Under the pieces are notes generated by a model, which did no database searches, was not told where the DNA came from, and saw only the letters and a program-made list of their open reading frames with translations. From assembly GCF_900105005.1 (NCBI RefSeq), contig NZ_LT629748.1, forward strand, positions 620,001-684,000: a DNA stretch of 64,000 bases, given 5' to 3'. How positions within the stretch are numbered: position 1 is the stretch's first letter; each line of letters opens with the position of its first letter. A program made the translations under genes and the position numbers. This stretch comes from Halopseudomonas litoralis (GTDB lineage: Bacteria > Pseudomonadota > Gammaproteobacteria > Pseudomonadales > Pseudomonadaceae). This document shows, in pieces, positions 32,928 through 38,046 of this stretch.

Positions 32928-33306
32928 TCACCATTTAGACCAAACAATTTCCTTGAAGGTCTCTGATGTTCTGAACTTTTGCGGCGTATTGATAGGCTGT
33001 TCCTCAAAGCCCATATCGTTGGGCATATTCACGAAGGCTATGGCATCTATCAGCGCGGACCGCCCACCCAGATTAACACCAGCACCTGCAACTCCCTCGG
33101 TGGTGACCGGGACGTTTTGCGTCTCGCCGATTTTCATGGAGCCTCTCCCGCGCGTTACGCAGTGTCGGTCATCGGGTTTTTCCAATGTATCAATCCACAA
33201 CTGGTTACCCTTGCGGATAATCTGGTCAGCACCTATGGCCTGAAACCACGGCTGTGACGCCCGCGATATGCATTGTGGTCTTGGCAACCAGGGCCTGGTT
33301 ATCCAT
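32928..33306 (-). pseudogene. Unknown small gene downstream of the WYL regulator, apparently frameshifted
   Basis: An ATG at 33306, 9 bp after the WYL stop and preceded by GAGCCCAGGG, opens MDNQALVAKTTMHIAGVTAVVSG, which hits a stop after 26 codons. The adjacent frame continues without stops for about 100 codons: AIGADQIIRKGNQLWIDTLEKPDDRH, RGRGSMKIGETQNVPVTTEG, GRSALIDAIAFVNMPNDMGFEEQP. Joining the frames near 33235-33245 gives one coherent product of about 125 residues. Whether this is a mutation, a sequencing error or programmed frameshifting cannot be told from the sequence. No family recognised. Confidence 0.5.
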
Positions 33307-33315
33307 CCCTGGGCT

Positions 33316-34185
33316 CTAGCTACCGAAGAGATAGGGTGCGATGTCGTCTCGGTTACGGATGGTCAGCGGCTGCTCATGGGGCAGAGCGTCCTTAGACTCC
33401 CAGATGATATTCAGGGATTGAAGCAGATAATGGGCCAGCGCGCGCCGGACAGGAATCCTTAGTTCCCGGCGATCGTCCATGCCGTAGTCTAGGGCTATCA
33501 GCTCCTGCTGCTCCTTGCTCAGACCGGGGTTGGGAACAAGGCACAGTGTGAGCTGCTGCTGCCAGTCCTGGTCCAGTTCAGGGGCTGCCTGTTCTAGGGC
33601 GTTGCCGATCAGCTCCACCCCGGATGCGATCCTCGTCAGCACGAAATCGCGGAAATCCCTGTTTCTTTCGCACCAAGCCCGAGCGTGCCAGCGGTGGCCT
33701 GCATATACCAGCGTGTGGGGCGCAATGATGCGCTCTTCACCTGTGGGGTTCGACAGGGAGCGATACAATAGCTCCACTCTACTGCGATCCTGGGTTGCCT
33801 GTACCAACAGGCGTACAACTTCAGGGGACACGGTTCTGTGAATAGTTGATACCAACTCCGTTGGAGTTGGCACGTCTTTCAGTCCGGCGAATGATGGGTT
33901 CAGGGTATTATGCTGTCCCAACAACGCAAGGTACTCGTCGAGAATGCCCTTACTGAAGAGGGGCTGGAAGCTTGTGTCGGGGACGTAGCCTCGGCGCTGC
34001 GGATTATAAACCAGGTTGTCAGGTGCGCGATCCCGGTACTCTCGGAAGATGCGCGCGCTGGTGGTGCGGCTGCTGATGCCGAATGCGCGGTTAAGGTGCT
34101 CTGCGGTAACTCGCCCTTCCCAGTGGGCGATGACTTCCAGCAAATGGAATTGATAGCGTCTTTCCCAAGAGATGGTTTTTGGCAT
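33316..34185 (-). CDS. WYL-domain transcriptional regulator (CapW/BrxR-like)
   Basis: 289 residues from ATG 34185 (AGGGAACATA upstream). N-terminal winged helix (RYQFHLLEVIAHWEGRVTAEHLNRAFGISSRTTSARIFREY), a linker, the WYL domain (VELLYRSLSNPTGEERIIAPHTLVYAGHRWHARAWCERNRDFRDFVLTRI, in pieces) and a WCX-like C-terminal domain. This three-part architecture is that of the defence-locus repressors BrxR and CapW. It is divergent from the helicase gene, with CTGTACAG palindromes between them, and so likely represses both directions until a nucleic-acid ligand is sensed (inference from the family). Confidence 0.88.
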   Translation of the reverse strand: MPKTISWERRYQFHLLEVIAHWEGRVTAEHLNRAFGISSRTTSARIFREYRDRAPDNLVYNPQRRGYVPDTSFQPLFSKGILDEYLALLGQHNTLNPSFAGLKDVPTPTELVSTIHRTVSPEVVRLLVQATQDRSRVELLYRSLSNPTGEERIIAPHTLVYAGHRWHARAWCERNRDFRDFVLTRIASGVELIGNALEQAAPELDQDWQQQLTLCLVPNPGLSKEQQELIALDYGMDDRRELRIPVRRALAHYLLQSLNIIWESKDALPHEQPLTIRNRDDIAPYLFGS

Positions 34186-34193
34186 TATGTTCC

Positions 34194-34233
34194 CTGTATG
34201 TACAGAAAATGAACACATTGTAAGTCTGTACAG
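34194..34233. promoter_or_regulatory. Probable WYL-regulator operator in the divergent promoter
   Basis: Perfect palindromes CTGTATGTACAG (34194-34205) and CTGTACAG (34226-34233) share the half-site TGTACAG. The first lies 9 bp upstream of the WYL start codon, the second 32 bp further on, within the 111-bp space between the two divergent genes. Confidence 0.6.
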
Positions 34234-34296
34234 TATCGCTAAAAAGTTGCGTCACCGGCTAAATGTATTGAGCGTTGGCCGGTCTGGAGAAGTGAC

Positions 34297-36774: not shown

Positions 36775-36832
36775 TGGTCTAATGAAACCGGACACCAACT
36801 AGGCGACAATACTCGCCATTGAGAGGTGTTCG

Positions 36833-37141
36833 ATGACAAGAAAGCGACGTACTTTTACCCCTGAATTCAAACAGGAAGCAGCCAGCCTGGTGCTGGACCA
36901 AGGCTACAGCATTACCCAAGCCAGCACATCGCTGGGCGTGGTTGAAAGCGTCCTGCGCAAGTGGGTTAAACAGCTCACTGAGGAGCGGCAGGGTGTCACC
37001 CCTAAAGGCAAAGCCATGACACCAGAGCAGCAGCGCATTCAGGAGTTGGAAGAGCGGTGCCGGCGGCTGGAGATGGAGAAGACCATCCTAAAAAAGGCTA
37101 CCGCTCTCTTGATGTCGGACGACTGGAAACGTACACGCTGA
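36833..37141 (+). CDS. IS3-family transposase OrfA
   Basis: 102 residues: HTH ([32 protein letters not shown]) followed by a leucine-zipper-like coiled coil ([28 protein letters not shown]). The AAAAAAG run at 37090-37096 lies in the overlap with OrfB and allows a -1 shift to make the OrfAB fusion. Confidence 0.93.
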
Positions 37142-37995
37142 TTGACCAGTTGAGAGAGCAGGCCCCCGTTGACATGGTGTGCGCAGCCTTTGATATCAAC
37201 CGTTCCTGTTACTACGAACACCGCCAGAGGATACAGCGTGTGGATGCTGAGCGTGTAGCCCTGAGGGCCCAGATTAACGAGCTGTTCAACAAAAGCCGCA
37301 GCTCGGCAGGTAGCCGCACCATCAAGGACATGCTGAACGATCAAGGCGTCGGCATCGGCCGCTTCAAGGTGCGCCGTTTGATGGGAGAGCTTGGCCTGAT
37401 TTGTAAGCAACCAGGCCCCCATAAGTACAAGCAGGCCACCGTGGAGCGGCTAGATATCCCCAACCGTTTGGACCGGGAGTTCGATGTGGCGCAACCAGAT
37501 CAGGTCTGGTGCGGTGATATCACCTATATCTGGACCGGGCAGCGCTGGAGTTATCTGGCGGTGGTACTGGACCTGTATGCCCGTCGCGTCGTCGGCTGGG
37601 CCATGTCTGACACCGCTGATGCGGACTTGGTGGTACAGGCCTTGGAGCATGCGTGGGAGCAGCGTGGGCGCCCTCATGGGGTGATGTTCCATTCTGACCA
37701 AGGATCACAGTATGCAAGTCGCAAGTTCCGGCAGAGGCTGTGGCGCTTCCGTATGGTGCAAAGCATGAGTCGTCGAGGCAACTGCTGGGATAATGCTCCT
37801 ATGGAGCGGCTGTTCCGCAGTCTGAAAACGGAATGGATACCGCCGATGGGGTATCACAGCCTGGCAGCTGCCCGGAAGGATATCAGCAACTACCTGATGG
37901 GGTACTACAACCAGAAGCGTCCCCACGCCTTCAATGGCGGGCTCGCTCCGGCGGTGGCCGAAGAAAAACTTAAAACTGTGTCCGGAATCAGTTGA
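37057..37995 (+). CDS. IS3-family transposase OrfB (DDE integrase core)
   Basis: The frame lies -1 relative to OrfA and is probably expressed as OrfAB; the ATG at 37057 is unlikely to be the real start. HTH_21 region ([18 protein letters not shown]), then the catalytic core: [10 protein letters not shown] (first Asp), [11 protein letters not shown] (second Asp) and [20 protein letters not shown] (Glu). About 300 residues, usual for the family. Confidence 0.92.
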
Positions 37996-38004
37996 CCACT
38001 ACAC

Positions 38005-38046
38005 AAGAAGTTTGAAGAAATACAGGACAAGCCTCCGTCTGCCTGA
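38005..38046 (+). pseudogene. Displaced 3' end of the helicase gene
   Basis: In the frame restored by removing the IS3 element, codons 38008-38043 read KFEEIQDKPPSA followed by TGA (38044-38046). This is the original helicase C-terminus, now separated from its gene. Confidence 0.75.

Follow-up and report, generated by a model that had tools for sequence, protein, structure and literature searches.

The closest described relatives of the locus examined here are systems that remove plasmids. In the DdmDE system of Vibrio cholerae, encoded on VPI-2, the guide-loaded, Argonaute-like DdmE is described as finding plasmid DNA and recruiting DdmD, an SF2 translocase that moves 5' to 3' and bears a nuclease at its C terminus, after which the plasmid is cut (PMC12409362). 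The same source already puts in print that a WYL gene, VC1772, stands beside ddmDE in V. cholerae, on its upstream side, and may have a regulatory role. The ApsAB system of Escherichia coli ST38 likewise joins a related SF2 helicase and PD-(D/E)XK protein to an Argonaute-like partner, and ApsA and DdmD are described as one broad family (PMC11096173). ApsA is the longer protein, with active-site residues numbered to 1435 and ApsB as its partner, and QAVGRVER is marked as one of its four helicase motifs (PMC11096173). According to that report, plasmids were no longer lost with the ApsA helicase/ATPase mutants K221A and E533A, a nuclease mutant had a partial effect, and apsAB was often inactivated in E. 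coli colonies retaining a plasmid (PMC11096173).

The window, that is the whole stretch of 64,000 nucleotides of Halopseudomonas litoralis DNA that was analysed, contains an open reading frame of 825 codons for a helicase (34297-36774, forward strand) divergent from a WYL regulator gene. The original prediction took this pair, together with a small neighbouring gene, for an undescribed defence system. We are highly confident that the locus is instead a decayed remnant of the known DdmDE plasmid-elimination module, located near an integrase module and truncated by an insertion sequence, in which the regulator reading frame remains open.

Several comparisons identify the helicase. The PADLOC DdmD model (PDLC04130) matches the 825 residues with an E value of 5e-189 over profile positions 19-847 of 1190, and the window protein thus belongs to the DdmD family over its whole retained length. 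The other PADLOC matches, typeIV_DinG and mad8, are both weak and no PADLOC model of a BREX, DISARM or Zorya helicase was matched. Pfam gave only weak matches under the cut-offs and nothing in NCBIfam was matched, which may be why the helicase looked new. The closest of 40 listed homologues, drawn from a scoring of the 8000 best candidates, is P0001, an intact protein of 1178 aa that shares 824 of 825 residues with the window protein. Lengths within this list fall between 1167 and 1203 aa for 38 of the 40 homologues; the other two are P0026 from Vreelandella aquamarina (954 aa, on a 3.57-Mb contig) and P0032 (598 aa), which sits on a 2.2-kb contig. When a profile built from 31 rows (the window protein together with 30 of the listed homologues, P0026 and P0032 being among the ten omitted) was compared with the PDB, solved DdmD chains were matched nearly end to end. 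One of them, 9ix4, is labelled DdmD (E 2e-60), and we take it to be the protein of Lactobacillus casei. Others, including 8u0u, 9bf1 and 9ezx, bear the label "Helicase/UvrB N-terminal domain-containing protein"; we infer that these chains are V. cholerae DdmD because entries 8u3k, 9bgk and 9ezy also contain DdmE, that of 9ezy being named as V. cholerae. Judged by sequence, the 825 residues are the N-terminal portion of DdmD, which supplies both motor and nuclease to the DdmDE system.

The motifs of the fragment agree with this assignment. TGIGKT at residue 38, DEFDR at residue 248 and SATAT at residue 520 confirm the Walker A, DEFD box and SATAT elements first noticed in the reading frame, and the corresponding Walker A, DE-box and SATA motifs occur in all 31 rows of the alignment. 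The interval of about 270 residues between motifs II and III had been regarded as distinctive, but such a large spacing (272 residues in the window protein) is common to the family. Similarly, GSMGEGKN at residue 712, which had been read as motif VI, is conserved across the family as a distinct motif. All 30 aligned relatives carry the family motif VI, EQA[VIL]GR..R, which the window protein does not have. Motif VI is the arginine-finger motif of these helicases. In P0001 it reads EQAVGRTAR and starts at residue 827, two past the last residue of the window protein. The C-terminal nuclease signature D-x-K, also found in 30 of 30 aligned relatives, is missing too, the reading frame stopping at residue 825 of about 1178 and hence before the PD-(D/E)XK nuclease region. 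The window copy differs from the V. cholerae system in having neither motif VI nor the nuclease region nor a DdmE.

The stop codon of the fragment belongs to a mobile element that went unmentioned in the original prediction. An IS3-family insertion sequence of 1234 bp with the ends TGTAGTGGTC...GACCACTACA occupies positions 36770-38003 on the forward strand (NCBIfam transpos_IS3, E 3e-96); it starts within codon 825 of ddmD and its left end provides the premature stop (36772-36774). Including the window copy, eight full-length and near-identical copies of this element exist in the genome. Inspection of the junctions of the window copy revealed no 3-bp target duplication, an absence that is suggestive at most since such duplications flank four of the seven other copies and are lacking at three of seven. 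A search of the 3.99-Mb single-contig genome (estimated completeness 100%) with intact P0001 as query did not find the missing 353 residues of DdmD; the single match covers residues 2-826, where 826 corresponds to the stop. What comes next 3' of ddmD in the window is the insertion sequence, with no DdmE adjacent, and a Marinobacter DdmE query found no match in the genome, a search that had no positive control and is weak alone. Taken together, the negative genome searches for the remainder and for DdmE and the missing target duplication indicate that the right half of ddmD and ddmE were probably deleted.

We suggest the following course of events. The IS3-family element would have inserted within codon 825, after which the DNA to its right, with ddmE and the 3' end of ddmD, would have been lost, an IS-associated deletion being the likeliest route. 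Left are the WYL regulator and a DdmD fragment devoid of motif VI. This fragment is predicted to be inactive because the insertion sequence cuts ddmD before motif VI and the nuclease and because neither the remainder nor ddmE was found in the genome. The proposal that the helicase is a defence effector consequently holds for its family, which is a defence family, and fails for this truncated copy, which is predicted not to work as one. The gene is a defence gene by descent, from a system already known, and it is broken, a dead fragment. A partial DdmD protein could still be expressed, as the fragment is otherwise intact and differs from P0001 by one substitution. The locus is a documented case from nature in which a plasmid-defence module was lost where an insertion sequence lies.

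The open state of the 825 codons, one residue different from P0001, could alternatively be taken to mean that the truncated protein is a functional short variant, for instance a helicase-only or dominant-negative form, kept together with its regulator. Another shorter homologue exists (P0026, 954 aa), and mutation of the nuclease site of ApsA had a partial effect on plasmid loss (PMC11096173). Near identity to P0001 is, however, equally expected from a recent break, the missing motif VI is present in all 30 aligned relatives, only two of the 40 listed homologues fall below 1167 aa, of which P0032 lies on a 2.2-kb contig, and no DdmE was found; we consider a functional short variant very unlikely. 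The truncation might also be an artefact of assembly at a multi-copy insertion sequence, ddmDE being whole in the living strain. Insertion sequence copies are common points of misjoining, eight near-identical ones are present here and the window copy is without target duplication, but a misjoin between copies would not remove 353 DdmD residues from the entire 3.99-Mb genome, whose estimated completeness is 100%. An assembly artefact is accordingly even less probable than a short variant, and we retain the reading of a ddmDE remnant broken at the insertion sequence.

Gene order in relatives shows what an unbroken locus looks like. GTDB genomes were scanned with two short peptide patterns, which yielded 17 ddmD loci and do not amount to a full census. 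Wherever the contig extends far enough past ddmD, in 15 of 15 loci, a DdmE homologue lies directly 3' of it; this count leaves aside L014 and L019, whose contigs end within about 210 bp after ddmD, and includes a weak match in L018 (22% identity) and a match in L012 cut by the contig end. All six downstream genes tested scored as PADLOC DdmE, and comparison of the L003 protein with the PDB gave solved DdmE at an E value of 1e-115. The relatives of the window protein therefore keep the ddmD-ddmE order of the V. cholerae system and, in contrast to ApsA, carry DdmE-type partners.

Immediately upstream of ddmD, a divergent WYL gene of the same family as the window regulator occurs in 8 of the 15 loci with upstream DNA; L012 and L018 are excluded here because their contigs begin in ddmD or within about 300 bp of it, while a shortened gene in L006 (198 aa) and the split ddmD of L013 are counted as present. 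The eight loci belong to Marinobacter, Mangrovitalea, an Oceanospirillaceae MAG, Rheinheimera (the shortened gene), Alkalimonas, Photobacterium and two Aliivibrio. The ddmD of the Oceanospirillaceae MAG (L013:7938-11476) consists of two overlapping ORFs of 654 and 539 aa, as would result from a frameshift or a sequencing error. A profile grown from the regulator's family found no such gene upstream of ddmD in the other 7 of 15 loci, and Pfam detected no WYL domain in the upstream neighbour in the three of these seven that were scanned (L005, L014 and L016). A WYL gene thus accompanies the helicase in these relatives, and the observation of a WYL gene beside ddmDE extends from V. cholerae to these eight of 15 ddmD loci of other Gammaproteobacteria.

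Neither gene depends on the presence of the other, since seven of 15 loci showed no upstream WYL gene of this family and since the regulator has relatives (E up to 1e-20) in ten other genomes of the genus in which no DdmD match was obtained. DdmD itself was found in one of 37 genomes of a genus survey and in one of 369 genomes of a class-wide draw (E up to 1e-30), in both cases only in the genome of the window. As this genome is the sole carrier, the two draws give no association statistics and the 17 GTDB loci were used instead. Seven WYL homologues (P0045, P0048, P0049, P0050, P0052, P0053 and P0058), among the 120 listed of 822, agree with a DdmD homologue in the length of their longest contig, an indirect hint that the two genes share contigs; P0049 and P0052 are by name from the organisms of L003 and L004. 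Among 72,556 plasmid records a single DdmD match was obtained, weak, partial and from Nostoc, and among 50,697 phage records there was none. In viral contigs, 600 stretches fitted a pattern and none of them was confirmed as DdmD.

The regulator gene (33316-34218, reverse strand) has an intact reading frame and encodes a BrxR-family WYL transcriptional regulator. Its Pfam WYL domain is detected at E 1e-14, and among PDB entries it matches BrxR 7t8k at E 1e-59, residues 14-287 on query residues 23-298 and hence nearly full length, and CapW 9c5g at E 6e-41, with 7tb6 also among the BrxR/CapW matches. The BrxR/CapW-like architecture attributed to it from the outset is therefore upheld. Like BrxR and CapW it is divergent beside a defence gene, although this gene is ddmD and not part of a BREX or CBASS system. 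The real start of the protein is probably M12, at position 34185, because the database record of the regulator has 289 aa and starts there and because the alignments of the two closest relatives begin at query residues 11 and 14; those of L006 and L011 begin at residue 7 and those of four others at residue 16. With this start, the intergenic region separating the regulator from ddmD would measure 111 bp.

Two TGTACA palindromes, at 34199 and 34227, lie in this intergenic region and nine occur in the whole window. The palindromic sites first noticed between the two genes are thus present in the window, but they are absent from the intergenic regions of L003, L004 and L013, three of the eight relatives with a divergent WYL gene. 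A block of 36 bp (34203-34238, no strand assigned) is conserved there, being identical at 30 of 36 positions in L003 (Marinobacter orientalis), 26 of 36 in L004 and, with a 6-bp shift, 24 of 36 in L013, whereas 60 simple shuffles each reached at most 23, 22 and 21, respectively; these three of the eight relatives were picked for comparison because they looked alike. The block is a candidate for a shared operator or promoter. No promoter or terminator emerged when 34100-34400 was scanned for them.

In intact loci the ddmDE operon may be under the control of the BrxR-like WYL regulator encoded divergently beside it. Whether regulators of this type switch ddmDE is the question of interest that remains at this locus. 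We tentatively propose, while regarding it as rather doubtful, that BrxR-type WYL repressors could generally switch ddmDE in the Gammaproteobacteria. They would work via the block shared between the divergent genes, and a nucleic acid, for example single-stranded DNA of an invading plasmid, would serve as the ligand that lifts repression. Plasmid defence would then be inducible and the window would hold an orphan switch left after its effector was destroyed.

The small gene assigned as a partner to the helicase, supposedly 9 bp downstream of the regulator, is most likely no gene. This ORF of 119 aa (32928-33287, reverse strand) lies 28 bp from the stop codon of the regulator. In a comparison with about 5.8 billion proteins its sole match is a 69-aa piece of itself, and it has no match in plasmid records. 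The strand opposite to it carries part of a metallophosphoesterase gene (32967-33095, forward strand) corresponding to residues 153-195 of an intact homologue, L043:7854-8483, with 65% identity over 43 residues (E 1.5e-14). The homologue has a Pfam Metallophos domain (E 2e-11) and adjoins the same integrase module in a genome of the same genus. We thus rejected the small ORF as a partner protein; it most likely represents a chance reading over a gene fragment. That the metallophosphoesterase gene adjoining the WYL gene in L003 corresponds to the gene broken in the window was also considered and rejected.

The original reading of a WYL-regulated, undescribed system made of a stand-alone helicase and a small partner can claim a genuine divergent pair and a defence-type regulator, yet it is already contradicted and the least probable of all. 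The helicase is DdmD, 38 of its 40 listed relatives are full-length, and the nuclease motif occurs in every one of the 30 that were aligned. Where the DNA reaches far enough, DdmE comes after ddmD in 15 of 15 loci. The supposed partner matches nothing except itself and reads against a broken gene on the other strand, and the occurrence of WYL next to ddmDE had been published before. With the locus recognised as a ddmDE remnant, what had looked like a lead to a new defence system built on a helicase proves false.

The remnant lies close to mobile DNA. An integration module at 28261-31348 comprises genes for an XRE protein, an AlpA-like protein, a tyrosine recombinase, an HD/MobH-like protein and an MbcA-type antitoxin, and has 96% DNA identity with locus L043 of the same-genus genome G012. 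The tyrosine recombinase (integrase) gene itself (28873-30048, forward strand; Pfam Arm-DNA-bind_2 and Phage_integrase) has a 96% identical copy in a genome of the same genus. This conservation places the ddmD remnant near a mobile integration module and pieces of transposons. The 53 bp at the 3' end of a tRNA-Asp gene (26108-26160) recur in L043 (306-358), and this repeated match suggests that the tRNA gene may be the attachment site of the module. The antitoxin gene (30998-31231) is of the Xre/MbcA/ParS type according to Pfam, and its homologue in L043 adjoins genes for a metallophosphoesterase and an exonuclease of the RNase T type.

Two metallophosphoesterase fragments in opposite orientation, 31243-31362 and 32967-33095, flank a short ORF of 133 aa for a Mutator-family transposase (31378-31779), an arrangement that is a sign of rearrangement. 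A direct repeat of 151 bp (91% identity) is formed by 27932-28082 and 40752-40902. Its second copy falls inside a large ORF (39643-41178) that, we presume, resembles an IS21-type transposase, and the first copy may accordingly be a remnant of the same element. Elsewhere in the window, a gene for a PP2C phosphatase-protein kinase fusion (8464-10215) is located downstream of a nitrite reductase-like gene (4659-7217).
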